DNA from: a virus
Virus record (IMG/VR): IMGVR_UViG_3300043548_000837
Span: 23,060 to 87,059 of that record
Strand: one strand, 5' to 3'
Length of the DNA stretch: 64,000 nucleotides
Both the position numbers and the translations under genes were made by a program. Positions within the stretch are counted from its first letter, which is position 1. Every line of letters begins with the position of its first letter. This document shows positions 40,558 to 59,645 of the stretch, piece after piece. A model generated the notes under the pieces. It had not been told where the DNA came from and made no database searches. It was given only the letters and a program-made list of their open reading frames with translations.

Positions 40558-40563
40558 ATTTTA

Positions 40564-40592
40564 TTGTATTTCTTCGTTCGGTAAGGTAAAAT
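40564..40592 (+). promoter_or_regulatory. Sigma-70-like promoter of the tail tube gene
   Basis: TTGTAT, 17-bp spacer, TAAAAT. The leader of about 36 bases is A/C-rich (AACAAGATAAACAACTAACC) with no Shine-Dalgarno. Confidence 0.65.
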
Positions 40593-40634
40593 TAAAGATA
40601 GATAACAAGATAAACAACTAACCATTATAACACT

Positions 40635-41045
40635 ATGTCAGATATTTATGGATTTAGCTCAAATGTAAGTACGCCAGCAACAGCCGATAAGAGTACTATT
40701 GGCTGGGGAGGTAGTGTTGCTGGGGCCGTACAGGTAAGTATTAGTTACAACCAGCAAATTAACAAGCGCCGCTCCATGGGTAATGGTGGAGCTATCGTAT
40801 GGGCCAGCCAACCCACAGGACAGATCAATATCCAGAAGTTGGTTATTGGCAGTCTTGTGAAGGGCGCTGCAGGCTTTCAGGCTTGTACACCAACTACAAT
40901 AACATTTAATGCAGGTAGCTGCGCTTCTGGTGGCGGAGGAGTTACAGCAACAGGTTGCGTTGTGTCTCAGTACACAATCACCGCAGAAACAGACGGGATG
41001 ACTGTTATGGAGAACGTGGTGATTGATTTCGTCTCCTTAAGTTAG
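40635..41045 (+). CDS. Tail tube protein (136 aa)
   Basis: A small beta protein rich in Gly/Thr/Ser with the usual order of tube proteins: VAGAVQVSISYNQQINKRRSMG (early strand and loop), GQINIQKLVIGSLV, and a final YTITAETDGMTVMENVVIDFVSL with the typical terminal strand pair. A glycine-rich loop with two Cys (NAGSCASGGGGVTATGC) is unusual. It has its own promoter and is followed by a hairpin terminator, consistent with a high-copy tail protein. Confidence 0.8.
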   Translation: MSDIYGFSSNVSTPATADKSTIGWGGSVAGAVQVSISYNQQINKRRSMGNGGAIVWASQPTGQINIQKLVIGSLVKGAAGFQACTPTTITFNAGSCASGGGGVTATGCVVSQYTITAETDGMTVMENVVIDFVSLS

Positions 41046-41075
41046 TCTTGCTACCCTAAATATCTGCTTGCTAAT

Positions 41076-41113
41076 AGGCCTCAGTCTTCTATAGTGAGAC
41101 TGAGGCCTTTATT
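41076..41113 (+). terminator. Strong hairpin abutting the next start codon
   Basis: AGGCCTCAGTCT, 9-base loop, AGACTGAGGCCT, then TTATT and the ATG at 41114. A 12-bp perfect stem but only a short U tract, so termination would be partial. It may instead protect the tube mRNA 3-prime end or limit translation of the downstream spike gene. Confidence 0.75.
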
Positions 41114-43456: not shown

Positions 43457-43461
43457 CAACT

Positions 43462-43977
43462 ATGAATGACCAACCATTAATCAATCCATCTATTGAATTA
43501 GATCAGTCTCCATTGCCAGTAACCGATATTTCTCCTGAGGACAAAGAGCGCTTCTTCAAGAGTATTCTTGCGGACAAGCCTTATGAAGAGGTTGTTTCTC
43601 TTTTCGATGACCAGATCAAGGTTAGGTTTAGAGCAATGACTGTACAAGAAAACACTGATGTCGTTAATCAGATCGTTGCAGATAGGAAAGCTGGCGTGGC
43701 TGCAGACACTGACGCCTATTTCATTACAGTTACGACATACCGTCTAGGCGTCTGTTTGTTAACTATCGACGATAATCCGTACTGTACATTGACCAAAGAT
43801 ACGTTCGTACCGTTCACAGAGAACGATACATATATTCTTGCCCGCTGCAAAAGCATGCGCTCCTGGTCTACTGCAAGACTTGCGGTTTTTATCGACGCGT
43901 TCAAAAAGTTTGAATCGAAGCTGATCAAACTCACAGGAGAGGTACAAACTCCAAATTTTTGGAAAGCCAGCGCATAA
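43462..43977 (+). CDS. Tail assembly chaperone, upstream frame (171 aa)
   Basis: A mixed alpha/beta protein located one gene before the tape measure. The heptamer A-AAT-TTT (43953-43959), in phase near its 3-prime end, is a canonical -1 slippery site that would join it to the overlapping frame, giving a 287-residue product. This is the G/G-T layout of many tailed phages. The proteins bind the tape measure during tail assembly and are absent from the virion. Confidence 0.75.
   Translation: MNDQPLINPSIELDQSPLPVTDISPEDKERFFKSILADKPYEEVVSLFDDQIKVRFRAMTVQENTDVVNQIVADRKAGVAADTDAYFITVTTYRLGVCLLTIDDNPYCTLTKDTFVPFTENDTYILARCKSMRSWSTARLAVFIDAFKKFESKLIKLTGEVQTPNFWKASA
43953..43959 (+). promoter_or_regulatory. 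Slippery heptamer for -1 programmed frameshift
   Basis: Zero-frame reading is CCA AAT TTT TGG; the X XXY YYZ heptamer A AAT TTT is exactly in phase. After a -1 slip the next codon is TTG at 43959, the first codon of the downstream frame. The fusion would have 166 residues from the first frame and 121 from the second. Confidence 0.75.
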
Positions 43978-44324
43978 GAAGTCTTAAAGAAGGCTACTTA
44001 CGCGGCTGGCTTAAGTTTGATTATCCTAATAGATACTCTCGTATTCGAGAAGAAATAATCCTTGAATACATTGAGGAGCAGCATGTCGTCGACTTGCTAC
44101 AAAACAGGCTACTGGTTGAGACTATATTACGCAGCTCTTTATCCAGTAAGGCTAAAGAGATTCTGCAGCCTATTTTTGACACCTCCAGGGCGATCACGGA
44201 ATTGAAATTGCCTTCAGCCGTCCCAAAAGATACAATTAAAGAAAATAAACAAGATCCTGAGGCACTTAAAAAAGAAATGGCTGAGTGGAAAGAATTGTTT
44301 AAAAAAGCGTCTGAAGCAAAATAA
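43959..44324 (+). CDS. Tail assembly chaperone, downstream frame reached by -1 frameshift (121 aa)
   Basis: The frame opens at TTG 43959, overlaps the upstream frame by 19 bases and contains no ATG until near its end, and it lacks the TATG start context seen elsewhere. It is therefore best read as the T-like domain made only as a fusion. The sequence is helical and charged (RIREEIILEYIEEQHVVDLLQNRLL; KKEMAEWKELFKKASEAK). It ends 5 bases before the tape measure. Confidence 0.75.
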   Translation: MESQRIRSLKEGYLRGWLKFDYPNRYSRIREEIILEYIEEQHVVDLLQNRLLVETILRSSLSSKAKEILQPIFDTSRAITELKLPSAVPKDTIKENKQDPEALKKEMAEWKELFKKASEAK

Positions 44325-44329
44325 CCACA

Positions 44330-47300
44330 ATGTCCGTACAGTCATTTCCAGGCTATGAAGCAGATACCGAATTCTCCCACATGGGGAGAAACTTTGGTAA
44401 CCCTATGATGAACTTCATGATGTCCATGATGTTCGGACAGAACCTCATGCCTTCTAGAGACTCAGGGCAGACCATGTATGACGCCCTGATCCAACGCGAG
44501 AGATCTCAGCACTTTTTACAGCTTCAACGTTCGCAAGGCTCAAACAACATGCTCTTTAAGAGGATGGGGCTAAACCAGAACCCTGTAGCCAACATATTAA
44601 GTCAGATGGCCATGTCTTCGCCAGACAGCGCAATGGGCAAACTATTGTCTCCTGCGCTAGGAGGAAATCCAATGGCTGCGTCCATGCAGATATATGGAGG
44701 ACTCAGCGGAGCCAGCATTATGGGTAATTTTGGCAGATCTAGCGGTGCCACCGTCGAAGAGACGGAGAGTACCATGGAGGCGCTGATGAACAATATGTAC
44801 AAAACCCAGAGCTATGAAGGCCCTGGAGGCATGAGAGAGGAAATAAATAAAAAGACTCAGAACAGGATCAGAAATCTTGCAGAGAACAAAGAAAACGATG
44901 CGTACCTGAGGAGCATGGGCATCAACGTTACCAGAGGGGCCGACGGCAAACTTTCACCAGAGTCTAAAAAGCAGATAGACTCTCTCGAAGTTGCTCCTAC
45001 AGGGTTAACTGAGAACCAAGTAGCCCAGAACAGATCAGACACAGCCTCTAAAATTAATAGCAGTCTATCTTCATTGCTCGAGTCTTCAGACAAGGAAACT
45101 TCTGACGCCCTAGATAAGCGAGTAGAAGAGCAACTAAAAGCTCACGGAGTAGCTACTGCAGACCAGATCAAGAGCGCAAGAAATAGTGGAGATAAAGCTA
45201 CATACGCCAACAAGATCAGAGAATACCTAGATAAGTATGAAGTCACCGGAGGTGATGTTAAAACTCCTGAAGCCCGAGAAGCTAGAAAAGGTATCGTATC
45301 CTCGTTACAGCCTGAATTAAAAGACCTGGCGCAAGCTTCAGGGCTTGTAGAAAGAGACCAAGCCAATGCAAAGCTAGAGGCAAAGCTAAAAGAAACAGGT
45401 ATAGCTTCTAGCCATATAGAGAAAACAAAAGTTGGCGGAATTATTGTGGCGGCTAAAGCCGAAGACATGCTCAAGAAGTTTGAGAAAGGCACACTCGGGC
45501 AGCGCAGTAATAAAGACCAGGAACTAGAGAATAGAATAAATCGGAGACGCACGATAGCCTCTGAGTTAAGCACTGAAATAGATGACGTACGGAACCTAGA
45601 CGATAAGGACAAGACTAAAAACGATAAGATTAAAGCTCTTAGAAAGCGGATGGAAAAAGAGCTAAACCTTTCTGAGGATAAAGCTAAGGAAATATTTGAC
45701 GAGGATCGAGGAATGACTTCTGCTGACGGGATCAGCTCTAAAGGTGCAGGTAAAGCTAAAGAGGCTTTGCGTAAGCATACTGAGCTTGATGATGTCGAAA
45801 AAGGTTATGAAGAAGCCAAGGCCGCCCAAAAGGCAGAAAAGCGCTATACAGGGTATAAGTTTGAAAATTCTATGGGGTTTAAGCTAGAGGATTTCACATC
45901 TGCTTATGTGCAGTCCGCAAATCTTCGCATGCTCGGAGACAGTCGAGGGGTTAGCATCGCTGGTAAAATGGCAGATTTTTCAAAAAATGCTGGAGGCACT
46001 ATGGACGCCGCGAGGTCCCTTTTCGGAGACAAGTCAGGTGCAGAGCTTATAAGCAAAATCAGTGAGATGACCGGCAGCTCTGTGGACCTTTCAACAGCAA
46101 AAGGAAACGAAGCTGCAGAAAAACTATTGCGTGATGTGAAGGCTACAGCTCATGTAGCTGGAGTTAGTATAAACACCATGCTCTCAATTATTGACGCGAC
46201 AAAAGAGCTCGCAGCAAGCAATCCGCGCCTTGCAGGTATTAGCAGCAAAGCTACAACCACCATGGCTATGAACGCTGTTACCAAAGCTGCAGATTTTGGT
46301 ACAGGTATGACAGCCAAAGAGTATCGCCAATCAGGAGGAAACCAAGCGATAGCTGCAGACGAAGTCAGCCGCACGCAAGCTTTCATGAGCTCTGGATTAG
46401 GTCGGCAGCTTTTTGGTATAATGGGACTTGTTGAAGGTCTGGGTACCATGACTGATGAAAATGGTGTGGAATATGACCCAGCTGATAAAGTTCGAGAAAT
46501 GATTGCGAATAAGGAGCTAACCATAGATTCTTTTAACACTGGAGAAGGCTTCGATAAAATTATAAAGGCTACGCAAGGTAGAGTAAATCGAGACCAGCTG
46601 GTTAGATCAGGACAAAACGAAATACTTGTCAAGGCTGGCAGAGCCAACGAATCCACTGCGCTTACAGTGGAAGGGGCTGCTGACGAGATGATTTCAGACG
46701 AATTCTGGAAGATAGCAGCGACCCGGAATTTGTTTAAAGAAGATTACTACGCTAAAGTGGCTGAAGAGCGTAAAAAAGGAGATAAAGGCAAAACTTCTGA
46801 AGAGATACTTAATACTATGGTTGGCCAGGCTAACTTTGACGATATAGTAGAAGGCGGCGGTCAAGCTCTGATTGCTACTTATGGTGCTGGAGTAGCTCGC
46901 AGGGGAGCAGATGCCGCAAGAGACCCTGAGGAGCGCGCAAGAGTTCAGCAAAAGAGAGATGAGCGGGCCAAGGCAGACGCTCGTATTAGTCGTGTATATG
47001 CAGCTAATTATTCGCCTATATCTCAGCAGATGATTGGAGCAATCATGGAAGGTAAAGACTTTGCTGAAAGCGCACAACTGATGGGAGGCATCTTTGCTAC
47101 AAGAGACTATAAAAAAGAAGAAACAAAAGCAGCTGTACAAAAAGCTAGAGATGCTGGCTCAGCCATAATAGATATTTCAGCCAAAGCTCAAGGCAGTCAG
47201 TCTGAGCTTAAAAAGAGAGGTATAGACAAAGAGATGAATAAGTTTATCGAAGGCCGCAAAGCTGAAGCTGAGGCTCTTGGCGAGGATGCGTCTTATTTGT

Positions 47301-48019
47301 CTGGAAATATTTCTATGGAGGAGTACGAGCACGAGGCCAACTATCTACGCCATGTACAAGGTACATCTAGCGCAAAAGAAGCTAAAGCTAAATTAAAAGA
47401 TCTTGAGGCGAATGAAAAGAATCTGGATGACGTAGGCAAAAAGTCTCTCGCTGCTTTACGCACAGCAAAAAAAGCAGGACACTTAGATAGTGATGCCGCA
47501 CTAAAATTGGCAAAGTCAGGCAAACTTGAAGGTGTAGCTGCAGCTACAGTACAAGCGCAGACAGATAAAAACATCGAAAGAGTTAAGAGTGAGGAAAAAA
47601 ATCGAGTACTTGGTAATCTAGGTTCAGACCTTCAGGAGAAAGCCGGAAGCGATGCTGAGATTAAGGACGCTCTTGCGTTTTACGAAAAGCAAGGGCTCAC
47701 AGGATCCGCAGCCATTGAAAAGATGTATGAGGACCATCAGAATCCTACAAAAGGAGTAAATAACTTTTTCAGAGACGAAAAAACCGGAGAGCGTAGAAAA
47801 TTAAAGCAAGGCTCAAAACTAGAGAGCGCGCTTGTAGAAGCTGAAGGAAACATAGCTCAGGCGGCTCAAGATATAGATAAGAATAAAGCAAAAAGTGAAG
47901 GAGGCCCCAACAAAGAACTCACTGACGCATTAAATAATCTCAAAGATATAATCAAAGGTGGTGGCGGTATAGGTGACGCTTTGAGCGGGCTAGCCACAGC
48001 ACTCAGCACCCTAAAATAA
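44330..48019 (+). CDS. Tape measure protein (1229 aa)
   Basis: A long, almost entirely helical Ala/Lys/Glu/Asp-rich protein directly after the chaperones and before baseplate genes, as tape measures are in all contractile-tailed phages. The N-terminus is Met/Gly-rich (GNPMMNFMMSMMFGQN). A less charged region near 515-780 may be a folded domain. No lysozyme or peptidase motif and no clear membrane hairpin are seen. At about 1.5 angstrom per residue it would set a tail of roughly 180 nm. Confidence 0.85.
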   Translation: MSVQSFPGYEADTEFSHMGRNFGNPMMNFMMSMMFGQNLMPSRDSGQTMYDALIQRERSQHFLQLQRSQGSNNMLFKRMGLNQNPVANILSQMAMSSPDSAMGKLLSPALGGNPMAASMQIYGGLSGASIMGNFGRSSGATVEETESTMEALMNNMYKTQSYEGPGGMREEINKKTQNRIRNLAENKENDAYLRSMGINVTRGADGKLSPESKKQIDSLEVAPTGLTENQVAQNRSDTASKINSSLSSLLESSDKETSDALDKRVEEQLKAHGVATADQIKSARNSGDKATYANKIREYLDKYEVTGGDVKTPEAREARKGIVSSLQPELKDLAQASGLVERDQANAKLEAKLKETGIASSHIEKTKVGGIIVAAKAEDMLKKFEKGTLGQRSNKDQELENRINRRRTIASELSTEIDDVRNLDDKDKTKNDKIKALRKRMEKELNLSEDKAKEIFDEDRGMTSADGISSKGAGKAKEALRKHTELDDVEKGYEEAKAAQKAEKRYTGYKFENSMGFKLEDFTSAYVQSANLRMLGDSRGVSIAGKMADFSKNAGGTMDAARSLFGDKSGAELISKISEMTGSSVDLSTAKGNEAAEKLLRDVKATAHVAGVSINTMLSIIDATKELAASNPRLAGISSKATTTMAMNAVTKAADFGTGMTAKEYRQSGGNQAIAADEVSRTQAFMSSGLGRQLFGIMGLVEGLGTMTDENGVEYDPADKVREMIANKELTIDSFNTGEGFDKIIKATQGRVNRDQLVRSGQNEILVKAGRANESTALTVEGAADEMISDEFWKIAATRNLFKEDYYAKVAEERKKGDKGKTSEEILNTMVGQANFDDIVEGGGQALIATYGAGVARRGADAARDPEERARVQQKRDERAKADARISRVYAANYSPISQQMIGAIMEGKDFAESAQLMGGIFATRDYKKEETKAAVQKARDAGSAIIDISAKAQGSQSELKKRGIDKEMNKFIEGRKAEAEALGEDASYLSGNISMEEYEHEANYLRHVQGTSSAKEAKAKLKDLEANEKNLDDVGKKSLAALRTAKKAGHLDSDAALKLAKSGKLEGVAAATVQAQTDKNIERVKSEEKNRVLGNLGSDLQEKAGSDAEIKDALAFYEKQGLTGSAAIEKMYEDHQNPTKGVNNFFRDEKTGERRKLKQGSKLESALVEAEGNIAQAAQDIDKNKAKSEGGPNKELTDALNNLKDIIKGGGGIGDALSGLATALSTLK

Positions 48020-48026
48020 TCTAAGT

Positions 48027-48464
48027 ATGCCAGCTTTCTATTTTAATTCGAACGGATCAGAGATTTTCCGGCAAGGAGGAGGAGCACAGATCGTTAAAAT
48101 CCCTGCTGTTGACAGTATTGTGGGTAGTGGAGGTTTGGCTGTTTACAGTCAGGTTACATTCCAGGTCAATGAAACTCTTCAATATTTTCTAGCGTTTGAC
48201 GATGTGATCAAGTTTATTCACTTCGGCAAAGCCGTAGGGAATGTAACAGCTGAAGGAATATTATACTGCGACTGCTCAGGCAATTTGCCAGGTTTAAGCA
48301 GAGCAACATCAGCTATAGGCACCCTCAGAGGGAAAGCCGTAAAACTTACCCTAGGAGCTTACACAGTTACAGGTATTCTGACTAGTGCGACGATAAGCGC
48401 TCTTGCCGACCAAGACACTTTTGGGCAGTTTGCATTTAACTTCGCTATAGTCAACCACAGTTAA
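48027..48464 (+). CDS. Tube-like baseplate protein (145 aa)
   Basis: A compact beta protein (IPAVDSIVGSGGLAVYSQVTFQVNETLQYFLAFDDVIKFIHFG; KLTLGAYTVTGILTSATISALADQ) with the size and strand pattern of tail-tube-fold proteins. Position after the tape measure fits a tube-initiation or hub protein rather than the main tube. It has one Cys pair (YCDCSG). Assignment moderate. Confidence 0.55.
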   Translation: MPAFYFNSNGSEIFRQGGGAQIVKIPAVDSIVGSGGLAVYSQVTFQVNETLQYFLAFDDVIKFIHFGKAVGNVTAEGILYCDCSGNLPGLSRATSAIGTLRGKAVKLTLGAYTVTGILTSATISALADQDTFGQFAFNFAIVNHS

Positions 48465-48467
48465 TTT

Positions 48468-49445
48468 ATGGTCAACCATTTTGCCTCTTTGCTTGGAAAT
48501 TTCAGTCTGACCGCCCAAAGACTGATGCAGGTTCCCTCTGTCTTGGGTGACGCAGCCGAAGATCCAGATCTCCAAATTTCTATCGACGGAGAATTATTGA
48601 TTTCTTTGGATGAGTACTATATGTCTTTAAGGTATGAACGAGTAGACAATCCTTTAATCTGGAAAGATCATGTTCCTCTAGTGTTGCCTAGAGAACTTGC
48701 TAACTTCGGGGAAATTTTGTTCCCGTCAAACTCTTCGCTCTATTACAAAGTTTTTTTGCTGTATAGCTACCTAAATATCATTTCCGCTACTTCATTTGCT
48801 GACGAGATATATAGGTACGACTCAAGAATTACTTATAACCTGGCAGATATGCAGAACTATTTTAGGTTGCAAAGAAATTCCAAAGCAGTGAGCAGCGACT
48901 CTAATTTCAATCTAAACCTACTAGGTAAATTCATAGCATCTGAAAACATGCTGTATCATTTAAATAACTTTGTTGTTAAACAAGTAGGTAACTCTTCACA
49001 GCTGCTTGTATTTTCTACTACAGAAGGAGCATACTATAATGAAGATGCTATAGCTTCACCTACACCTGCAAACATGGAAGTCAATTTAACTCTAAGCACT
49101 ACGCCTGACACCTCTAGAATAATACGCGTAGGTGCTACAGGACTATCGTTCTTTATATCTGGACCATTCAACGACAGTTCTTTAGGCTTCTCAACACAGT
49201 CTGAAAGGTTTTGGGCTTTCACCTCAGAGACAGCACCTATTTTTAATTTTGCGAAGCTTATGAATACGATTGAAAGCCTTCCTAACGCTGTAGAAGCTAT
49301 GCTAAATTATAGACATAATGCTGCGGACGCCACATATGAGAACATCTGGAAAATGCATTATAACACAGCCTACCGATTTGTAGGGCTGCTGCTAGCTTAC
49401 GTGAACAGAATTAACTTATTATGGCTACAACAGACGTCACAATAA
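48468..49445 (+). CDS. Unrecognised baseplate-region protein (325 aa)
   Basis: A helical and beta mixture with many Tyr/Asn (YRYDSRITYNLADMQNYFRLQ). The central part (about 185-245) is beta-like, and the end is helical (AAYTYENIWKMH-like region). It lies between the tube-like and hub-like genes and overlaps the latter by 25 bases in another frame. It is probably a baseplate hub or tube-cap component; family not recognised. Confidence 0.5.
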   Translation: MVNHFASLLGNFSLTAQRLMQVPSVLGDAAEDPDLQISIDGELLISLDEYYMSLRYERVDNPLIWKDHVPLVLPRELANFGEILFPSNSSLYYKVFLLYSYLNIISATSFADEIYRYDSRITYNLADMQNYFRLQRNSKAVSSDSNFNLNLLGKFIASENMLYHLNNFVVKQVGNSSQLLVFSTTEGAYYNEDAIASPTPANMEVNLTLSTTPDTSRIIRVGATGLSFFISGPFNDSSLGFSTQSERFWAFTSETAPIFNFAKLMNTIESLPNAVEAMLNYRHNAADATYENIWKMHYNTAYRFVGLLLAYVNRINLLWLQQTSQ

Positions 49446-51061
49446 CTTCTAGTCTTGGTGAGGCTATTGGTGTAACTATAACACTGGCTGTAGGGTCAAT
49501 ACCCTCAGCAGCTGTAGACCTACGCCCATCTGGCGGCGGAGCTAAAGTTGTGGGAGGTGGAAGTTTTCCAGATATTGATTCACGCAGGAGAACTGGCGAA
49601 GAGTCTGTTAGTGTTAATGTGAAAGTCAGAAAAGGCTCCGGAGGGTCAGCTAACAGGTCATTTACCTTTAAAGGTATTCTAGACGGCTACTCTATAAGTA
49701 ATATTGTAGGAAATAACTCTTACCAGGCAGTAATTAAACACAAAGCTCAGTGTCTTTTAGAGCTCACCACGCTGATGCCTGGATTGTTTCCCGCAAGTAC
49801 AAATATTTATAGGATTTCCAATCATTCTATCACTACGTCTGCCCAAGGAGATGAGTCAGAGTCTGTTAAGCAGTGGTGCGCTTTAACTGGGAAAAATCCT
49901 GGGATACTAGAGCTACCTCCTATAAAGTTCTACGTTGAACTTCTTAAACTCATCATAAAAGAGCAGCAAGGAGGCTGGGAGAATTACACAGGCAAAGACC
50001 CTATGGTTAGTGGTGAGCCTGCGTACAAAGAGATTTTTTCTTCTTCGCAGTATCAGAAAAGCTTAAATTCAGCTTCTGAGGTTTTAGGTAACTTGAGTTT
50101 TGAAGGCTGCTCAGGCATGATTGATAGTCTTAAGATGGGTACGGTGGGGTTAAGGGTAAAGGATATCTTTGCAGGAGGACCCTCTATTCTTTTAGAAAAT
50201 TTATTAAACTTCTTATCCTCAGTAGGTTGCTCTATTATTTTTGGAGGCAGCAAAAGCTACATCGTCCCAATTAACTCGGTTATAAAACAAGATAAATATA
50301 CTCCTGGGGTAGGACAATTAAGTACTACTGTTAACTGCGCAGGCCCCGCAGACTATAGCAGCTATTCTTTTAATGACGTAGGCTTTCGCGACGTCAACAG
50401 CGTGATTTTATTGACTCCACAATACACAGGGGGGCCTCATCTCGGACCAAAAGGACACGATAGAGCTGTGATTGGTTGCTTTGCGGCACCTGCGGGCGAA
50501 GCCAAAGGCTCTGGGGTGTATGTTACTCGAGCGCATCCGTGGATGGATGTCTCTGCTACAGCTCCGAAAGCTACAGATGCTAAAAAAGGAAAAATTAATC
50601 AAGACGGAGAGAGCTCTCCTTACGAAAAACAAATATCGTTTGCTGATGCAGCAAAGACCACAAACAAGAGCCATGCAGAACGAGAGAGTAAAAAAACAAA
50701 AGAAGTAGAGAGTTCTGCAGGAAAGTACATGAAAAACTTTGCAGAAACAAAATATTACCAGGCGAGATTTACAGATAGACAAGGTGCCATAACCCTAGAC
50801 TTTAACCCTGCATGGGCTCCAGGAACTGGAGGAGTTTTGTTTGTGCGTGAATCTGGTATGTATCTGCACTTTTATGTTACGTCTGTAGTGCATAGAATTG
50901 AAACAGGTCCTCCTAATGTAGGTTCGGCTATAACTATCATTAATTTTTGCTGTGGTAGGTTCGGTAAAGATCCGGTAGGCTCATCTTCCGACGACTTCTT
51001 GGGGTATGACGCAGGCGTAGAAAAAGGAATTCGTGAGGGTTACGCAAAATCTTTCTCATAA
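49421..51061 (+). CDS. Putative baseplate hub protein, gp27/gpD-like (546 aa)
   Basis: The N-terminus is beta-rich (SVNVKVRKGSGGSANRSFTFKGILDGYSIS). A helical middle (about 165-200) leads to a second beta domain (LRVKDIFAGGPSILLENLLNFLSSVGCSIIFGGSKSYIVPINS) and a C-terminal part with GGVLFVRESGMYLHFYVTSVVHRIE, the kind of order seen in hub proteins that sit under the tube. A charged, probably disordered insert covers about 385-435. Its start lies inside the previous gene. Confidence 0.55.
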   Translation: MATTDVTITSSLGEAIGVTITLAVGSIPSAAVDLRPSGGGAKVVGGGSFPDIDSRRRTGEESVSVNVKVRKGSGGSANRSFTFKGILDGYSISNIVGNNSYQAVIKHKAQCLLELTTLMPGLFPASTNIYRISNHSITTSAQGDESESVKQWCALTGKNPGILELPPIKFYVELLKLIIKEQQGGWENYTGKDPMVSGEPAYKEIFSSSQYQKSLNSASEVLGNLSFEGCSGMIDSLKMGTVGLRVKDIFAGGPSILLENLLNFLSSVGCSIIFGGSKSYIVPINSVIKQDKYTPGVGQLSTTVNCAGPADYSSYSFNDVGFRDVNSVILLTPQYTGGPHLGPKGHDRAVIGCFAAPAGEAKGSGVYVTRAHPWMDVSATAPKATDAKKGKINQDGESSPYEKQISFADAAKTTNKSHAERESKKTKEVESSAGKYMKNFAETKYYQARFTDRQGAITLDFNPAWAPGTGGVLFVRESGMYLHFYVTSVVHRIETGPPNVGSAITIINFCCGRFGKDPVGSSSDDFLGYDAGVEKGIREGYAKSFS

Positions 51062-51069
51062 TACAAGCG

Positions 51070-51702
51070 ATGAATAACATAGAAAAACTAATCAAGGATA
51101 ATAAGAAACTTATCGACCTTGAAGCATCCAGATATGCTAGTAATCTGCCGCTGATCACCGTACAACTAGAGGCTTACAAGCTGGCTAGAGAAGCAGCTAA
51201 AACGTATAACGCAGCTTCTGGCATTAAATTTAGTACACACCTAGTAAACAGTCTTAAAAAGCTTTCAAGGTTATCTACAAAATATGGGACTGTGTTGCGA
51301 ACACCAGAAAACACCCAGTTTGATTTAAATAAACTTAACAAGCTAGAAAAAGACCTAGAACATCAGCTCGGGCGCACTCCAACAACAGAAGAGCTATCAC
51401 ATCACTCAGGAATGTCTGTGAAAGCAGTCACTAACACGCTGAAGAGCAAGAAGACTAGTACAGGTATTTCTTCGCTGTTCGACTCCCCTACTCTATTTTC
51501 AAGCCAGAATGACGAGTGGGTTCAGTTTGTTTATCATGATCTGTCAGATAAAGACAAGTTGATCTTCGAACATAAAACAGGGTTTGGAGGTAAACCAATT
51601 CTAGATAATACACAGCTAGCAAAAAAGTTAAATTTGTCTGTGAGCACCCTCAGTAATAGGTTAAAATTAATAAACTCAACTTTGTCGAAAGGCTGGAAGT
51701 AA
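51070..51702 (+). CDS. Sigma-70-family factor (210 aa)
   Basis: Three sigma regions are readable in order. Region 2: AREAAKTYNAASGIKFSTHLVNSLKKL (39-65) matches the core-binding and -10 helix pattern AxxxFDxxxGxKFSTYxxxxI. Region 3: QLGRTPTTEELSHHSGMSVKAV (99-120) matches ELGREPTxEEIAxxLGMxxxxV. Region 4: from LSDKDKLIFEHKTG to QLAKKLNLSVSTLSNRLKLI (158-201) holds the -35-recognising helix-turn-helix. It has no region 1.1 and is shorter than RpoD. It sits between the hub and wedge genes, 8 bases after the hub gene, and its stop overlaps the next ATG (AATG). The likely partner is the phage polymerase, or the host core enzyme. Confidence 0.86.
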   Translation: MNNIEKLIKDNKKLIDLEASRYASNLPLITVQLEAYKLAREAAKTYNAASGIKFSTHLVNSLKKLSRLSTKYGTVLRTPENTQFDLNKLNKLEKDLEHQLGRTPTTEELSHHSGMSVKAVTNTLKSKKTSTGISSLFDSPTLFSSQNDEWVQFVYHDLSDKDKLIFEHKTGFGGKPILDNTQLAKKLNLSVSTLSNRLKLINSTLSKGWK

Positions 51703-52112
51703 TGTATAAAAAAATATCAGATGTGTTATTCGATATCGCGGATCTGTTTGAGTCCTCGATCCCTGAAGCTCGTCTCGCAAACGATTTCAGAGGACGCACA
51801 TGGTTTTTAAAAGCTATAGATTATAGTAAAAAACTAATTCTTGCGGATCTTAGAAAGATCACCGACTCCGAAGACCTCAATAAAGAGTATCGTACCAGAT
51901 ATAAAGACGAAGACCCTAAGTCCAGAAAAGGCTTGAGTGCAGTAAAGGCCGAAGTCAGTATGCTATACAGCTTCAAAAAATCTTTCGTACAAAGATATAA
52001 AGGCAGAATTCATTTCTATAGAGATGACCTTTCCCAAAAAGGGGCACGTGTTATGGCTACCGCAGGACAGGCTCACGGACTGTTTGAGCTATTCAAAAAA
52101 AATCTAGACTAG
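51702..52112 (+). CDS. Small unrecognised protein coupled to the sigma factor (136 aa)
   Basis: Translation is coupled to the sigma gene through an overlapping stop-start (TAATG). It is basic and helical (KKISDVLFDIADLFESSIPEARLANDFRGRTWFLKAIDYSKKLILADLRK). I see no zinc or HTH motif. It may be a baseplate subunit, like its downstream neighbours, or a sigma partner. Not recognised. Confidence 0.55.
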   Translation: MYKKISDVLFDIADLFESSIPEARLANDFRGRTWFLKAIDYSKKLILADLRKITDSEDLNKEYRTRYKDEDPKSRKGLSAVKAEVSMLYSFKKSFVQRYKGRIHFYRDDLSQKGARVMATAGQAHGLFELFKKNLD

Positions 52113-52115
52113 CCT

Positions 52116-52595
52116 ATGCCTATATCAGGAACATCTACGGACTATACAGGAAGAAAGAAGGATATAAGTATCTTTCAGAACCCTGACGCCATGCGTGTAG
52201 GAGCTCAAGATGTATCTGCCTCTTTTGGCAGACAGGCTAAATTTTGTGCAGGTGTACAGAAGCTTCTGCAGCGTTACGCCATATTGCTTCTTTCAGATCT
52301 GGGATCGCAGCCAAATTATCCTAATTTTGGTACAGACTTTATGTCTACTATAAAGGCTGGAATATCTCCTGTAGATAAACTGGCGGCTATGCAAATATTT
52401 TCTAGCGCAAGTTACGACGCAGTATTGCTTTTGCGAGAATATCAAACATCCAGACCTGAAATACCTCCTGACGAGCGTATAGTTAGAGCAGAATTAGCAG
52501 GAGTCAGCCTATATGGCTCGTATGCTGCTTTTGATGTTACGATATATACCGAAGCTGGCGAAGAGGTTAAATTTTTAGTACCTTTACCGAAATAA
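52116..52595 (+). CDS. Baseplate wedge protein, gp25/W-like (159 aa)
   Basis: Size and order fit: AILLLSDLGSQPNYPNFGTDF (about 55-75) resembles the GpW/gp25 core where the tail lysozyme-like fold binds the wedge, and it lies immediately before the J-like wedge gene as in other contractile tails. The end is beta (GSYAAFDVTIYTEAGEEVKFLVPL). Confidence 0.65.
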   Translation: MPISGTSTDYTGRKKDISIFQNPDAMRVGAQDVSASFGRQAKFCAGVQKLLQRYAILLLSDLGSQPNYPNFGTDFMSTIKAGISPVDKLAAMQIFSSASYDAVLLLREYQTSRPEIPPDERIVRAELAGVSLYGSYAAFDVTIYTEAGEEVKFLVPLPK

Positions 52596-52598
52596 TAT

Positions 52599-54212
52599 AT
52601 GGCAGAATCATTCGAGAATACTGTAGATAGAATAACCGCGTTTATAGCTCAAAATTTTACAGATATTGAGACAGGGCCAGGTTCAGTCATTAGTGAGTTA
52701 CTTATCAAGCTGGCCGCCACCATACAAAATGAGCAGTACAATCGTATTACAGAGTTAAGTCAGTCAAACGCTATAGCTACCGCATTAAATTCTACCGAAG
52801 ACACATATTCAGAAGCCATAGATAAGGTGGCGTCTAATTACAACACATACAGAAGTCGAGGCTCGAAGGTTACTGGGAGAATACGTGTTACTGTCTCTTC
52901 AGCGTCTGAGTATAATTTAAACCAAGGGTTCACGTTTGTTCAGTCGGCTTTAAACTTAAACTTTCTCGTATCTAAAGATACTTACGCTAGCCCTAACCCA
53001 TCGGCAGTTCTCGAAGAGATTCAGGTGTACAGCGATCAAGGGCTATATTATTTTATTCTAGATGTAGAGGCCGAGAACTCTGGACCAGACTACCAAATAC
53101 CTTCAGGTACGGTGTTTTCTATACCTGAAAAATATTACTTGAGAGACTTTGTACGCGCAGAAGCTTACGGCAACTTCTCTGGAGGCCGAGCCCCAGAAAC
53201 AGATAAGCAACTTATCGCTAAGCTGAAGAGTAATATAGGTAATAGTAAACTCGAGTCTGAATTCGGAATACGTAATAAGTTTAAAGACACTTTTGTGGGC
53301 TTCCAAGAGCTTTCTGTTTGTGGAGCCAACGACGATGAGATGCAGAGAGATAAGCAAAACATTTTCGGTATAGCTACATTTGGTAAGGCTGATGTATATG
53401 TCCGTAGCAGCCTAGGGCTTCAAACGTTGGCCGTAACAAAAAAAGGTACGTTGGTTGACGCAGCTCAAAACATATGGCAGGTGTTTATCGCGAATACGGA
53501 TGCGCCAGGGTTCTACTATATTCAGTCTATCATACCAAAGACTACAGATATTAGTTTTGGCGGAACGCTGATAATCAAAAACACAACTTTCGGGCATTCT
53601 ATTTTTTACGGACAACGTAATAATGAAGGTTTGACTGATAGAGATGCAAGGTTCTCTAAATATCAAACAGCCACAGTCACATTTCAGTATGAAGCTCCAG
53701 CCAATGTGACTGAACTAGACTTTGAACTACATATTTTAGGGCAGCCAAATCTTCTCGAAATGCAGGACTTGCTGCTTATAGACTCTCAGCGGCTGGCTTG
53801 CGCAGACTATCTGGTTAAAGCGGTTGTACCCTGCTTGGTTACAATGCAGATTAATCTAGTTAAGAAAAATCCTATAGATACATACGCTTCGCTAAACTTA
53901 CAGCAGTTAAAAAAAGATATTTTTAACTATGTGAATACTATACCGTTTGGCGAGCAGCTGTATGCTTCAAACATTATTAAGTTGTGTCACAACTATAACA
54001 TCAAACGGGTCGACCTACCTATCGCTATGAGTGGTCAAATTCTAGCACCAGACGGCTCTGTCATATATTTAAACAGCGATGATGCGCTATTGATGCCTTA
54101 CGACATACCTAAAGGCGTCAGCCCTAAAACCACAAACTACTTTATAGATTACTACAGAGTAGAAAACGGCGCTGTACAGCCGATAGACAATATCGGTATT
54201 AACATCACTTAA
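52599..54212 (+). CDS. Baseplate wedge protein, gpJ/gp6-like (537 aa)
   Basis: The pattern of baseplate J proteins is visible: an N-terminal helical part (ITAFIAQNFTDIETGPGSVISELLIKLAATIQNEQYNRI), a beta middle (VTGRIRVTVSSASEYNLNQGFTF, IPSGTVFSI), and the characteristic NFSGGRAPETDKQLIAKLKSNI (about 191-212). The last 100 residues are helical and strand-rich (YVNTIPFGEQLYASNIIKL), as in the C-terminal wedge domain. It forms the ring that links the hub to the fibres. Confidence 0.8.
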   Translation: MAESFENTVDRITAFIAQNFTDIETGPGSVISELLIKLAATIQNEQYNRITELSQSNAIATALNSTEDTYSEAIDKVASNYNTYRSRGSKVTGRIRVTVSSASEYNLNQGFTFVQSALNLNFLVSKDTYASPNPSAVLEEIQVYSDQGLYYFILDVEAENSGPDYQIPSGTVFSIPEKYYLRDFVRAEAYGNFSGGRAPETDKQLIAKLKSNIGNSKLESEFGIRNKFKDTFVGFQELSVCGANDDEMQRDKQNIFGIATFGKADVYVRSSLGLQTLAVTKKGTLVDAAQNIWQVFIANTDAPGFYYIQSIIPKTTDISFGGTLIIKNTTFGHSIFYGQRNNEGLTDRDARFSKYQTATVTFQYEAPANVTELDFELHILGQPNLLEMQDLLLIDSQRLACADYLVKAVVPCLVTMQINLVKKNPIDTYASLNLQQLKKDIFNYVNTIPFGEQLYASNIIKLCHNYNIKRVDLPIAMSGQILAPDGSVIYLNSDDALLMPYDIPKGVSPKTTNYFIDYYRVENGAVQPIDNIGINIT

Positions 54213-54214
54213 TC

Positions 54215-56062
54215 ATGCTAAGCGACATTCTTTCTTTGAATTTTCCTGCTGGGGATGTTACAGATGGTCAGCATTTGTACAGAACTCTAGGTTCTTTTTG
54301 GTCGCAGATATTTCAAGACCGTAACGAGCTGAAAGGGTATACCACTGCCCTTGCTGAAGAGGTTATTCAGTCGTACTATAACTTAATAGAAACTGTAAAT
54401 CAGTATTCGGTTAAAGACATCGACTTGTTTCATAAAGAAAAGTGGTTGCCTCTAGTTATTAAAAAGTCTGAATACAATAAAGCTCCTTTCGTATACTCTC
54501 CCAACGGTGCAGTTTTTGGTTACCAACCTGAGTCAGATTTATTTTATGCCAACCAGCTTTTTAGGTTTGGCTTCCCAAAAGAAACATTAGGAGGGCAGAT
54601 ATTTAGTTTTACTCCTAAAATTAAGTTATCTTCCCCAGGACTTGTAGCTAACCGGGTCATTGCTCCGTCACTTTTACTTATTCCTGGGGTTGACGTTGTA
54701 CTCAACGAAAACACATTATATTTTAAGACGGATCTATTCAACAACGAGTATATTCCTAAAGCTAAAGTAGTCGAAGACCTAGGCAAAGTAGCTACATACA
54801 AAACATCAGAAGGAGAGCTTGTTGAGGATGAGTTTATTGTCTTATGGATGTATATGGCATCCGTAGATGACTCTCAGGTATATAAAAATTTTGGAACTAT
54901 TTTTGATATTAATTTACCGACTTCTGAAAGCTACAAGAATTTGCTAGGAGCTATTATAAATTTACAGGTCGAAGGGGCTACAATAACAGCACTAAACTCG
55001 ATGTTTGCTATGCTGGTTAATGCTCCTGTAGCGATAGAGTCTCGTGAGGTTATAGAACACATGTATTCTGACGAAAGGTACCAATACGCTATCACAGACA
55101 AACATGTTTATAAAATTCCTGCAGATCAGTATTTCAGAGGAGACCTGAATGAAGGTAGTGTTATTTTTTCTGGAGAACCTTTGACAGAGCACATTCAGAT
55201 TGTAGACACAGCCATCGACCCTTTGTGGTGGAAGACTGAGTTATACTCAAGCAAGCTAGGCTTTCCATCTCATGTTTTTGCCGCTAATACAGAACAACAA
55301 CTTTTTTTCGTCAACACAGATGAAGTTATAACTTATTTAGGTGCACTGCCCGCACCGAACAACAGGCTTGTTTTTCCTGTAGAAGGAAGACCTGAAGATG
55401 TCCAGGCGTTTCAAGATTACATTAACCAGCCTGCACGTAAGCAGAAATTATTACAAGCCCTGCAGTTTAAAGAAGGGCAAACAACTACAATGGTAATCAA
55501 CCCAGTAGATTTCCTTTTTGTGAATATTTTTAAGAATAACACACTGCTGCTAAAGCTAGATTTCTACAATCGAGAGAGATTAGACTTGTTTTTTTCTTTA
55601 TTCTCTACACTGCAACCTCTACTACCTGCACACGTATTCACTCTTGTTCTTCTCAAGCTCCAGCTAGCTGAAGAAACAATGACAAACTTAAATAGTAAGT
55701 TACGTATTCCAGGTTTTCCTGACGAGCTCTTTAGCATTGACGGCTCATCTGGGCTAAATGGGTCTAGACCTGGTGACCTTAGCGACCCAGATTACTATAA
55801 AGACTATATTAATAGACTTTTTTGCGTCTCTTTAGGGCCTTATCGCAATGGTCAACCACTACATGCAGACGGTTCAGCAAAGTTTAATCATGTAACTAAC
55901 ATAGATGAGATGTTCATTAACAATAATGCTTCGCCTTTGTCAGGTATATCTACAGGCGCACTACGTACCGACATCCCTTTACAGGTAAAACCGCCAGGCG
56001 AGCTATTTCCGAGAACGCCCTCGACTAGAGAAGTTCCATCGATCTTCTTAATAGACTTTTAG
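54215..56062 (+). CDS. Baseplate wedge/fibre-attachment protein (615 aa)
   Basis: It follows the J-like gene by 2 bases. The N-terminal 80 residues (HLYRTLGSFWSQIFQDRNELKGYTTALAEEVIQSYYNLIE) resemble the helical start of gp7- or I-type wedge proteins. The bulk is mixed, with beta-rich segments, and a C-terminal flexible Pro/Gly part (SSGLNGSRPGDLSDPDYY). It likely bridges the wedge and the tail fibres encoded downstream. Family not secure. Confidence 0.55.
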   Translation: MLSDILSLNFPAGDVTDGQHLYRTLGSFWSQIFQDRNELKGYTTALAEEVIQSYYNLIETVNQYSVKDIDLFHKEKWLPLVIKKSEYNKAPFVYSPNGAVFGYQPESDLFYANQLFRFGFPKETLGGQIFSFTPKIKLSSPGLVANRVIAPSLLLIPGVDVVLNENTLYFKTDLFNNEYIPKAKVVEDLGKVATYKTSEGELVEDEFIVLWMYMASVDDSQVYKNFGTIFDINLPTSESYKNLLGAIINLQVEGATITALNSMFAMLVNAPVAIESREVIEHMYSDERYQYAITDKHVYKIPADQYFRGDLNEGSVIFSGEPLTEHIQIVDTAIDPLWWKTELYSSKLGFPSHVFAANTEQQLFFVNTDEVITYLGALPAPNNRLVFPVEGRPEDVQAFQDYINQPARKQKLLQALQFKEGQTTTMVINPVDFLFVNIFKNNTLLLKLDFYNRERLDLFFSLFSTLQPLLPAHVFTLVLLKLQLAEETMTNLNSKLRIPGFPDELFSIDGSSGLNGSRPGDLSDPDYYKDYINRLFCVSLGPYRNGQPLHADGSAKFNHVTNIDEMFINNNASPLSGISTGALRTDIPLQVKPPGELFPRTPSTREVPSIFLIDF

Positions 56063-56079
56063 CCCTGCATACATATAAT
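56052..56079 (+). promoter_or_regulatory. Candidate promoter, near-leaderless
   Basis: TAGACT, 16-bp spacer, TATAAT (perfect -10), straddling the stop of the wedge gene. The ATG at 56088 follows 8 bases after the -10. Confidence 0.5.
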
Positions 56080-56087
56080 ATAGCTTT

Positions 56088-56651
56088 ATGCCAACTAACG
56101 AAAATTTGAATACGTCGGACTCTCTTACAGGCTTCGTCAAGATCTGGAAAACGCACCAAACCACAGGAGTATCTGAGCTGGTTGTTGATAAACGCAACAT
56201 GATACTTAAAGGTGGGGCAAAGATTATAGCTCACGCACTTGGCGGTGATCAGTATGCAAAGATTTGGGGCATGTACATTGGATACAATAATGATACTGGT
56301 ACCTTAGTGCCTCGTACTATAGATGTAGACTATTCGGACAAGTTTTTGAACTATGTTGCGCCTTATGGTTATTTGAGAGAGCCTTTAACTTTCTCACCCA
56401 CATACCAAACTTCTCTAGGTTATGATGAGAACGTTGTTCTTTTCTCTACGATGATCACATCTGCAACAAAAGCCGGGGGAGCAAGTTTTGACTCCACCAG
56501 CAGAATTTATGAAGTGGCTTTGGTTTCAGCTGTGGCTGCAGACGAGCTAGCAAAAGACACAGTCTTTTCTAGAACGAATTTTAACCCTATTCAATATAAC
56601 TCTAGCTACAACTTCACCATAACTTGGGGTGTCAGAGTATTACTTCCATAA
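56088..56651 (+). CDS. Tail-fibre region protein (187 aa)
   Basis: A compact beta-rich protein (VSELVVDKRNMILKGGAKIIAHALGG, KIWGMYIGYNND, YNFTITWGVRVLLP) that looks like a fibre head or baseplate-attached lectin-like domain, in the place where contractile-tailed phages encode fibre-joining proteins. No sugar-binding motif can be named. Confidence 0.5.
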   Translation: MPTNENLNTSDSLTGFVKIWKTHQTTGVSELVVDKRNMILKGGAKIIAHALGGDQYAKIWGMYIGYNNDTGTLVPRTIDVDYSDKFLNYVAPYGYLREPLTFSPTYQTSLGYDENVVLFSTMITSATKAGGASFDSTSRIYEVALVSAVAADELAKDTVFSRTNFNPIQYNSSYNFTITWGVRVLLP

Positions 56652-56653
56652 TT

Positions 56654-58735
56654 ATGAGCTTAACTCCATGGCTGCCTCTAGTTAGGCGTATTAAAGATGG
56701 TGAAACTGTAGATCAAGCTACGATTAACGTACCTATTGATCAGATGACTCAGAGAGAGCAGCATCTCTATGAGAAATTTAACGAGCTTGCAGGTAAGTCT
56801 GTGTTGCTCGCTTTTAATCAACCAGTACATCCAGAAGAGCTGCCGCACATAAAGCCTGACACTTTAAATATTGTCTACTTCAGAAGCGATGCTCAAGGTG
56901 CAGGTATTTCCAGAAGCATAACAGGGTTCACCTCAGCGCAAAGTTCTTCCTTGTTCGCTCCCAAAAACTCAAACTACTCTTTCGGTATTACCAAGATGGT
57001 TTACCCGAATACACGGACGGCTGACTTATATATTGAAGGCTTATGCGAGCTTGCAATAGCCCTAGACCATCCTGACAGAGGCATTCTTCAACCAGGTGAA
57101 ACTTTTTCTGTAGGTCCGTATTTTTTATCTGCTAAAAATTTAGGTAAGATTACAAAAGACCCTTCCGGCATTCCTGTCTATGTTGGATACGCGATCAGCA
57201 AAACTAGTTTTTTGTTGCACACAAATGTAGATGAATTTTCTCAGTTTTTTATAAACTACCGATACCATTTGCTAGACCGTGTGGCCGGAACACCCGAGTT
57301 AGACAGCAGTAGCGGTGCATGGACAATTACAGGATCAGACACCTCTAAGCTTGGTTGGGTGGCTGCTGCCTCCTCAGGCACTCCTGTACCTGCAGGAGCA
57401 TTATTTTACTATAACATTCCTCAATTAACCGTCACACTAGACGCTGATGACGAGCTTGAAGACTACGAGAAAGCTGAAGCTCTAGAGCTTAGAAGAGACT
57501 TGCCTCCTGTACCTGCCAACTTTATTCAGTTGTACACGAACGGAACCTTAGAGCGTTATCGCAACGACTACGACCCAGACGGCACATTTTCTGTTAACGA
57601 ATACGGTATCTGGTGGTTTAAGAATAACGACGGAGAACAGCCTTGGTCTTCAGGATACGCGGATATCTTACCTACAGCTACCTGGAGTGATATTAAGGAT
57701 GAGCTAGACGCAGACAATAACCGTATTCGAATGTTTGTCAGCTTCTCTAAGTTCAACCCGGCACTGAGAACTCAGCTGGTGCGCTCGCTTGCTCCTTTTG
57801 ATGCTGTAGACCCATCTGGAAATTATACAAATAGGCCTTCTAATTTCATAAAGTTCTACAGCAAAGACATTCCTTCTGAAACAACAGAAACTGGAGATCT
57901 CCTTGTAGATATTGACCCAAAGTTTAAGCTGTTAGGCTACCGTCCTAGCTCTGCTACCACAGACGCAGAAGAATTCAATTATCCGAGCTCTCCCAGAGTT
58001 CCTGAGTATACTGCGAACAGAGCAATTGCAGCAATTACTTATAGCAAGCCTGAAGGTGAATTTAAAGCTGTAGTTACTCCTGTAGTAGCCTCTATTGAGG
58101 GCCGAAACGGAATAACAATTGTAGAAAAAGCCCCAAACTCAGGAGCCTACTTCATCGACTATACGTCTAAAGGACTTGTAGGTCAGGTAGACTCTATCGA
58201 GCCCATAAATGCCAGACTAGAGTTTATAGGGTTAACTTCATACATAAAATTACCTCCTCCTTCAACAACTCCATACGGGCTGATCGGCAAAATAGTCATT
58301 CCTAGAGGTTATGTTAACTCGTTGCCGCTAAAGCTAAACTTTCATATTTTTGGTGACAAAGATATTGTGGGTGGTAGCAGCTACAGAAACATAGCTTTCC
58401 AGTTCGAGTATTCTGCTGTGGCTACAGCTAACAATCTTGTTTTGTCAGACCACACGTTGCTTACCGCCAACAAGTACGCTCCTGCAGTTAATCCTGTGGA
58501 GTTTCCTTTGGTAGCTTCCACACAGTCACCAAGCAGTTATACAGCATTCACAGCTATCAAAGTGTCTAGTGACGCCTTCACAATACCTGCAGCGTTTATT
58601 CGAGAAGATTCTATCGTCAATTTTAAGATCTCTCGAGTCTCTACAGGGTTAGCATCAAACAATTACGGAGGCGGAGTCACTGGAGGAGCAAATGTAGGCT
58701 TGCTTGGGGTATATTGGGAAATCTTAACTACCTAA
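56654..58735 (+). CDS. Tail-fibre/baseplate protein (693 aa)
   Basis: I start it at ATG 56654 (taattATG, two bases after the previous stop) rather than at a TTG 30 bases upstream inside the previous gene. The N-terminus (LPLVRRIKDGETVDQATINVPIDQMTQREQHLYEKFNE) is a helical adaptor; the rest is beta-rich with repeated Tyr/Pro/Gly turns and FVSFSKFNPALRTQLV. The C-terminal domain ends in a jelly-roll-like strand set (SIVNFKISRVSTG, NVGLLGVYWEIL). Probably a fibre or receptor-binding protein. Confidence 0.6.
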   Translation: MSLTPWLPLVRRIKDGETVDQATINVPIDQMTQREQHLYEKFNELAGKSVLLAFNQPVHPEELPHIKPDTLNIVYFRSDAQGAGISRSITGFTSAQSSSLFAPKNSNYSFGITKMVYPNTRTADLYIEGLCELAIALDHPDRGILQPGETFSVGPYFLSAKNLGKITKDPSGIPVYVGYAISKTSFLLHTNVDEFSQFFINYRYHLLDRVAGTPELDSSSGAWTITGSDTSKLGWVAAASSGTPVPAGALFYYNIPQLTVTLDADDELEDYEKAEALELRRDLPPVPANFIQLYTNGTLERYRNDYDPDGTFSVNEYGIWWFKNNDGEQPWSSGYADILPTATWSDIKDELDADNNRIRMFVSFSKFNPALRTQLVRSLAPFDAVDPSGNYTNRPSNFIKFYSKDIPSETTETGDLLVDIDPKFKLLGYRPSSATTDAEEFNYPSSPRVPEYTANRAIAAITYSKPEGEFKAVVTPVVASIEGRNGITIVEKAPNSGAYFIDYTSKGLVGQVDSIEPINARLEFIGLTSYIKLPPPSTTPYGLIGKIVIPRGYVNSLPLKLNFHIFGDKDIVGGSSYRNIAFQFEYSAVATANNLVLSDHTLLTANKYAPAVNPVEFPLVASTQSPSSYTAFTAIKVSSDAFTIPAAFIREDSIVNFKISRVSTGLASNNYGGGVTGGANVGLLGVYWEILTT

Positions 58736-58739
58736 TATT

Positions 58740-59627
58740 ATGCCTTGGATCGACAGCTTAGATTGGACAGACCTGAATTCTTTACGTAGATACCCTCTAC
58801 GCGAAGGATCTAGCGCCTTGAGTCGTGACGAAGTGTTCTCTATTCCAGATACTCTGATAGTTGATTTCACTTTATGCGCCACTAGTGACGTAAGCCGCAG
58901 GTTCTTTATATCCAAAATAGTTAATAAAGTTAACGCTATAGTTGTTGAAATAAGCGACGAGTATAATATTTTGGTCGGTACCTTTTATGCGGATAAGGCC
59001 AGTCATACACCTGACAAAGATTACTACCTAGCTGCAACCAACGAATATGTTGGAGCTAACGGTAAGATTACGATAGGTTCATTTGAAGGCTTACAGACAC
59101 AGCCTGCAGGTGTACACCTATTCAACAGATCTGCTGCTGAGTTTGAACCTAGAACTGTTGTACCTGGTATACAGGGTATAGACAGAATTACATTTATAGA
59201 CGCACAAAACGGGCAGTATTCTATATCTGGAGATGCTGTTGTAGCCTCTCGAAGCAATCTCAGGTTTTCTTACACGCAGCAGAAGATTTTGATGGATGCT
59301 GGCGATAACCTAGGACTTAACAAGATTTGCGCCACGACAAACTGCGTCAAGAGTATTAATGGTGTAGTACCTGACCCTACCTCAGGAGATATCAGCTTGC
59401 TAGGTATTAACTGTTTAAACATATACAGTGAAGCTCAGTTCACTTTAAGTATGGAAGACACTTGTTGTACTCCATGTTCTGGCTGCGACGACCTAGAGGT
59501 TTTAACTACACGCTTAACTTCGTTAGAGAACAAGTTTATTGAGTTGAAAGGTACGTACAACGATGTCAACTCGCAGCTCTCAAATTACCTCGCGACGATA
59601 AACTCCAATTGCGCCTGCCCAACTTAA
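58740..59627 (+). CDS. Tail-fibre protein with Cys cluster and coiled-coil end (295 aa)
   Basis: The N-terminal 60 residues (LNSLRRYPLREGSS ... LIVDFTLCATSDVSRRFFISKI) are related in layout to the N-terminus of the next gene. A beta middle is followed by C-x2-C-x2-C-type cysteines (DTCCTPCSGCDD, about 238-249) and a short coiled coil (TRLTSLENKFIELKGTYNDVNSQLSNYL) ending NCACP. The metal- or disulfide-like cluster before a trimeric coiled coil resembles fibre tips. Confidence 0.6.
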   Translation: MPWIDSLDWTDLNSLRRYPLREGSSALSRDEVFSIPDTLIVDFTLCATSDVSRRFFISKIVNKVNAIVVEISDEYNILVGTFYADKASHTPDKDYYLAATNEYVGANGKITIGSFEGLQTQPAGVHLFNRSAAEFEPRTVVPGIQGIDRITFIDAQNGQYSISGDAVVASRSNLRFSYTQQKILMDAGDNLGLNKICATTNCVKSINGVVPDPTSGDISLLGINCLNIYSEAQFTLSMEDTCCTPCSGCDDLEVLTTRLTSLENKFIELKGTYNDVNSQLSNYLATINSNCACPT

Positions 59628-59637
59628 CATATATTGT
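59609..59637 (+). promoter_or_regulatory. Weak candidate promoter
   Basis: TTGCGC, 17-bp spacer, TATTGT, over the stop of the previous gene; ATG 59646 follows 8 bases later. Matches the spacing rule of the better promoters but the -10 is poor. Confidence 0.35.
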
Positions 59638-59645
59638 AGCATAAT

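Follow-up and report, generated by a model that had tools for sequence, protein, structure and literature searches.

A sigma-70 family factor encoded in the baseplate module of a phage lineage with its own multisubunit RNA polymerase

Tailed phages related to the one analyzed here encode both a multisubunit RNA polymerase (RNAP) and a sigma-70 family factor, and the sigma gene lies nearly always inside the baseplate module. The starting point was a 64,000-nucleotide stretch of viral DNA (the window, to which coordinates without a contig or locus handle refer). Reviews up to 2026 describe jumbo phages that have a multisubunit RNAP without a sigma, or a sigma without an RNAP (PMC7824862, PMC7598289, PMC13282480), and RNAP-encoding jumbo phages are stated to lack sigma homologs (PMC7824862, PMC13282480). 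The window's lineage combines both. Single members are already known from GenBank, including one with an annotated sigma factor, though no description of the linkage between sigma and baseplate genes was found in the open-access literature searched. We lean towards the view that this protein is a late-promoter sigma serving the phage's own RNAP, a reading for which there are no expression, binding or transcription data.

The sigma gene is an open reading frame of 210 codons with an ATG start, bounded exactly by 51070 and 51702, and the opposite strand is interrupted by stops.

51070–51702, + strand: sigma-70 family factor; sigma2 at residues ~1–80, sigma3 at ~81–140, sigma4/HTH at ~150–210 (Pfam, PHROG and PDB profiles, Foldseek)

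The original prediction had read regions 2, 3 and 4 of a sigma-70-type factor in this protein, and the assignment held with all three kinds of profile. Pfam Sigma70_r3 matches with E=1.4e-11 and 44.7 bits (curated cut-off 25.3), HTH_24 is recognized at residues 178–199, and PHROG 351 ‘RNA polymerase sigma factor’ covers residues 3–203 (E=4.7e-10). Used as a single sequence, the protein matches SigB, SigA, RpoD and RpoS in the PDB with E values from 1e-6, while a profile built from 19 relatives covers sigma2-sigma3-sigma4 of SigB (residues 107–332, E=2.5e-15) and also matches SigA (E=7.8e-16). The AlphaFold model (mean pLDDT 75) is all-helical with the helices in the expected order, and all 50 of the 50 listed Foldseek matches are sigma chains or entries of transcription-initiation or RNAP complexes. 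TM-scores to full sigmas are low because the arrangement of the domains is poorly predicted in the model. The requirement for membership of the sigma-70 family, homology at the level of sequence across regions 2, 3 and 4, is satisfied. Core binding and promoter-specific initiation by the protein are inferred, without binding or transcription data.

The protein is not a group-1 (housekeeping) sigma-70, which would have region 1.1 and the canonical melting residues of region 2.3. It lacks region 1.1, beginning directly at region 2, and its promoter-melting residues are replaced: Y430 is a histidine (H57), close relatives read STH...N, and the W433/W434 pair is missing in 39 of 39 aligned relatives (E. 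coli numbering for Y430 and W433/W434). Alternative sigmas also vary at these positions of region 2.3, so this narrows the kind of sigma and does not touch the family assignment.

The gene belongs to an operon (41114–59627) that begins behind a strong terminator-like hairpin, and the genes in it overlap or lie a few bases apart, with every gap at most 25 bp.

41076–41108, + strand: intrinsic terminator-like hairpin, a 13-pair stem followed by TTTATT
49421–51061, + strand: hub-like baseplate protein directly upstream of sigma (profile chain to larger hub-like ORFs in relatives)
51702–52112, + strand: conserved 136-aa protein of unknown function, its start overlapping the sigma stop
52116–52595, + strand: gp25-like baseplate protein (PHROG 975, E=7e-7)
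52599–54212, + strand: gpJ/gp6-like baseplate wedge (PHROG 6, E=4.6e-15; Pfam Baseplate_J, E=3e-4)

The predicted placement of the gene between hub and wedge genes also held and is conserved, with the proviso that the label ‘hub’ for 49421–51061 rests on synteny and the profile chain; the Arash gene at this position encodes a lysozyme-bearing protein annotated as structural. A counterpart of the 136-aa gene comes after sigma in the close relatives L018–L031, and D69 and Arash have a similar-sized ORF there. On a larger scale, the + strand run from 13577 to the right end of the window contains RNAP parts, a head protease, a weak capsid-like match, sheath, hub and wedge, meaning that two RNAP genes share this structural run with sigma.

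The closest named homologs, at 25–33% identity, are gp10 of Salmonella phage Arash (OQ632216) and gene 11 of D69, from the group of Vibrio phages D69/D181/D148. In these phages the order is the same (hub, small ORF, sigma, a protein of ~125 aa, gp25-like, gpJ), and their genomes likewise carry a fused β-β′ RNAP gene. The Arash record names gp10 ‘RNA polymerase sigma factor RpoS’ without further remark, and D69 gene 11 is listed as a hypothetical protein; no paper on phage Arash was found in the literature searched. Unlike the window's clade, Arash and D69 have late promoters without a −35 element and a second sigma that is RpoS-like and not ECF-like.

Sequence homology shows that the window's phage encodes a split multisubunit β/β′ RNAP.

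5055–5717, − strand: RNAP β N-terminal piece 1 (tblastn to the N-terminus of Arash gp206, E=4e-15)
G000:21618–22394, just left of the window: RNAP β N-terminal piece 2
13577–16576, + strand: RNAP fused β C-terminal and β′ N-terminal parts, with active site GGDSDGD (Pfam Rpb2_6, E=1e-46, Rpb1_2 and Rpb1_1; Arash gp206, E=7e-138)
18123–19973, + strand: RNAP β′ C-terminal part (Pfam Rpb1_5, E=4e-14; phrog_25354, E=5.5e-36)

The N-terminal half of β is divided between two separated genes on opposite strands, and Arash and D69 have it as part of a single fused β-β′ protein of ~1525 aa. The phage RNAP can be aligned to bacterial β′ and β chains in the PDB through the clamp-helix region and the β-flap. 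In bacteria, these segments of β′ and β bind sigma. The closest phage relatives of this RNAP are Arash and D69/D181/D148, the same phages that carry the closest named sigma homologs. In its RNAP gene content the lineage resembles the multisubunit-RNAP-encoding Caudovirales (mReC) of Weinheimer and Aylward 2020 (PMC7481178), environmental tailed phages whose β and β′ genes are recognizable by standard models. The defining feature of that group, recognizable β and β′ of a multisubunit RNAP on a tailed-phage contig, is present, though neither contig identity nor tree placement has been established, and the mReC paper (PMC7481178) does not mention a sigma. The pattern of Chimalliviridae and phiKZ-like phages, two RNAP sets and no sigma homolog, does not apply, as a sigma homolog is present and each record has one β match.

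That the sigma occurs together with phage polymerase subunits, also part of the original prediction, held and is conserved in relatives. A scan of IMG/VR gave 21 sigma loci, one of them the window's own phage; each of the 21 has a gpJ-like gene on the same strand no more than a few kb downstream of sigma, and nearly all have a gp25-like gene there too (in L032 following an insert of ~2 kb). Of 24 sigma records, 15 also contain RNAP. Eight of the nine that do not are fragments shorter than 100 kb, and the ninth is G001, with a 29.6-kb overlap with the window's own contig (99.997% identity). Among the sigma records searched, no long one turned up that carries the baseplate sigma family without RNAP. 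The association was also examined in reverse, with 25 contigs of at least 90 kb picked solely for their RNAP: the sigma is encoded on 21 of them (E 1e-31 to 1e-95) and on 10 of the 11 that reach 150 kb; no sigma homolog was detectable in the remaining four of the 25, one of which is 171 kb long. Among the 21 sigma-bearing contigs, 14 have gp25- and/or gpJ-like genes downstream of sigma, six have only a recognizable hub-like gene before it, and in one the locus is truncated by the contig end. The hub-sigma-gp25-gpJ order is kept down to ~25% identity, including in D69 and Arash. Recovery of gene and position in about 40 contigs excludes chance.

Within the compared segment of the operon, sigma is the best-conserved gene, with 74–82% identity among close relatives vs ~35–70% for hub, gp25, gpJ and other neighbors. 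Its dN is 0.12–0.15 with saturated synonymous sites, and all three regions are under constraint, including the C-terminal HTH. A tree separates the baseplate sigmas, as a single group, from ten other phage sigmas with 89/86 support. The family was not found in Va2, Carin-5, Rhizobium Y65 or Vibrio 1.031.O, phages with more distant RNAPs. A 1219-aa open frame in G028 suggested a sigma-hub fusion, but this did not stand, as the hub is encoded by an ORF of its own and the sigma frame simply lacks stops. The sigma, the baseplate operon and a phage RNAP are also carried by a 226-kb contig (RXKB01000001.1) in a ‘Candidatus Dependentiae’ MAG, which looks like a phage contig within a bacterial bin and possibly hints at a host.

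Structural genes in this lineage bear a promoter class unlike that of other genes, as expected of a phage with a late sigma, the exception being four GC-rich relatives. In the window's clade the class reads TTGnnA-N17-TAAaAT.

19988–20016, + strand: late-type promoter candidate TTGATA-N17-TAAAAT before 20039; same hexamers and spacing in relatives
37140–37168, + strand: late-type promoter candidate TTGCTC-N17-TAATAT before the sheath gene at 37206; orthologous site in nine contigs, spacing kept, spacers differing
40564–40592, + strand: late-type promoter candidate TTGTAT-N17-TAAAAT before 40635

The structural-region gaps of nine contigs hold 35 occurrences of TTG-N3-N17-TAnnnT vs 2.1±1.4 in shuffles, and the third −10 base is A in 27 of these 35 TTG-N17-TA sites. 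Orthologous late-type sites keep hexamers and spacing while their spacers differ. For G000 and G006 together, the 19 structural gaps contain eight sites of the TAAnnT form where 0.24 are expected, and the 113 non-structural gaps a single one vs 1.4 expected; in the latter, TATAAT (25 vs 11 expected) and TGnTA[TA]AAT (8 vs 1.05 expected) predominate. Twelve structural regions of D69, Arash and G020 contain TAAAAT vs 2.6 expected, and the non-structural regions of D69 and Arash have TATAAG instead; late promoters of the D69/Arash clade read TAAAATA without a −35. The TAAAAT pattern was seen again in G024 and G035, genomes fetched afterwards, and was not enriched in the four GC-rich distant relatives (G026, G027, G036 and G037). 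The pattern was first noticed by eye and tested afterwards, and orthologous promoters are non-independent samples. A de novo EM motif search of upstream regions gave nothing clear above shuffles, and a general sigma-70 promoter scan of 40000–59900 was at chance (37 vs 34.6). The altered melting residues go with the changed −10; this fits an unusual −10 element without proving it.

In the proposed role, the sigma would lend promoter specificity to the split β/β′ RNAP and direct it to the structural (late) genes, at TTGnnA-N17-TAAaAT or, in the D69/Arash clade, at TAAAATA without a −35. With its gene embedded in the baseplate operon, it would be a positive-feedback late sigma, produced alongside structural proteins and keeping their transcription going, and stock remaining at the end of infection may enter the virion. 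The predicted promoter-specific holoenzyme of the phage's own is inferred from the co-occurrence and from the retained β′ clamp-helix and β-flap segments, with no physical data; recognition of TAAAAT promoters by the sigma and autoregulation are likewise inferred. Delayed expression, also suggested in the original prediction, is supported by co-orientation in the structural operon and by the separate structural promoter class; there are no timing data, and ‘late’ is deduced from gene content. Several points speak against this reading. It is possible that the host sigma-70 holoenzyme also reads TTG-17-TAAAAT, and nothing explains how late transcription would first start if the sigma is made solely from the late operon. 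The four GC-rich members without TAAAAT, the 4 of 25 RNAP contigs without sigma and the low TM-scores also count against it.

Phage-encoded factors of the sigma family that switch the class of transcription are represented by T4 gp55 and SPO1 gp28/gp34. These use the host core RNAP and are not known to be encoded in the baseplate module; late promoters of T4 consist of a −10-like element alone, like TAAAATA in D69. Promoter-specificity subunits of phage multisubunit RNAPs likewise exist as the fifth subunit of non-virion RNAPs, phiKZ gp68 and AR9 gp226. AR9 gp226 does not resemble sigma in sequence, and the homology of phiKZ gp68 to sigma is confined to structure (PMC7598289, PMC13282480), whereas the window protein is a plain sequence-level sigma-70 homolog. 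Another likeness is the g019 sigma of YerA41, an RNAP-encoding myovirus, which is late-expressed, lies in a structural cluster and is found in virions with RNAP subunits (PMC7354516). YerA41_195c (MW570730.1, 129933–130448, − strand) is annotated only as a structural protein and resembles FliA-type sigma region 2–3; by our own identification, from gene order and the FliA-like sequence, it is likely the g019 of that paper. It differs from the window's protein in being FliA-like over regions 2–3 only, weakly similar, and encoded between capsid and sheath genes, outside the baseplate operon. With cultured phages (Arash, D69) and defined candidate promoters available in this lineage, the way a phage multisubunit RNAP chooses its promoters becomes directly testable, and the question arises why tail genes should be accompanied by one for a transcription factor.

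Alternative readings differ in how far they depart from a late sigma of the phage RNAP. One that is compatible with it, though unlikely, holds that the sigma is made late, packaged with RNAP and injected for the first transcription round in the next cell, by analogy with the virion RNAPs of phiKZ and N4. Packaging with the tail had been suggested in the original prediction; it is not shown, and has one published, distant precedent. Purified particles of YerA41, whose RNAP is distantly related, contain RNAP subunits and the late-expressed sigma by LC-MS/MS (PMC7354516), and YerA41_195c, matched here to that sigma, lies in a structural cluster and resembles FliA. The fixed place of the sigma gene in the baseplate module across the clade and the two RNAP genes in the window's structural run point the same way. 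Against this, non-structural genes bear TATAAT or TATAAG promoters and not the TAAAAT class, and YerA41_195c is only weakly related to the baseplate family (E ~0.01) and sits elsewhere in its cluster. The Arash record labels many proteins ‘structural’ but neither gp10 nor the RNAP genes, although named virion proteins, the portal among them, go unlabeled as well. A bolder form, in which the whole lineage has a complete bacterial-style holoenzyme and sigma is built and packaged with the baseplate, is also doubtful; if true, tail assembly, delivery to the next host and the start of transcription would be coupled in one gene module.

About as improbable is a late sigma for the host polymerase, one that would take the host core to late promoters and leave the phage RNAP to work with another factor. 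T4 gp55 and SPO1 gp28/gp34 redirect the host core in this manner, and known phage sigmas work on it; the late promoters are bipartite and sigma-70-like, and D69 has an annotated Srd anti-sigma protein. However, the sigma is almost confined to phage-RNAP genomes, tested in both directions, and the absence of a long RNAP-less record among those searched also speaks against this alternative. The co-occurrence favors the phage core over the host core. Least credible of all is that a former sigma has become a structural part of the baseplate. In its favor are the fixed place between hub and wedge genes and the lost W433/W434 pair, but conservation within the operon is highest for sigma, with constraint on all three regions including the HTH, while the surrounding gp25, gpJ and hub proteins diverge much faster, and the distinct promoter class needs a specificity factor.

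Of the sigma families found, only the baseplate one is shared by both clades; the second sigmas of these phages lie outside its group on the tree and differ by clade, being ECF-like in the window's clade and RpoS-like in the D69/Arash clade. The ECF-like protein of the window's own phage (L007:1507–2091, − strand; G001 near 61 kb) has 194 aa with Sigma70_r2 and r4, and its gene lies directly behind a DnaB/RecA-like ATPase gene, a pair also present in G002 and G008. In the Cobetia phage Carin-5, a gene annotated ‘RNA pol sigma factor’ (L015:14720–15310) adjoins the RNAP gene; Pfam gives no sigma match for its product. A repeated GTTATAAG / GGTATAAG element occurs upstream of non-structural genes in D69 (L002/L012/L135) and Arash (L008/L011/L136), and possibly constitutes the promoter of the second, RpoS-like sigma.
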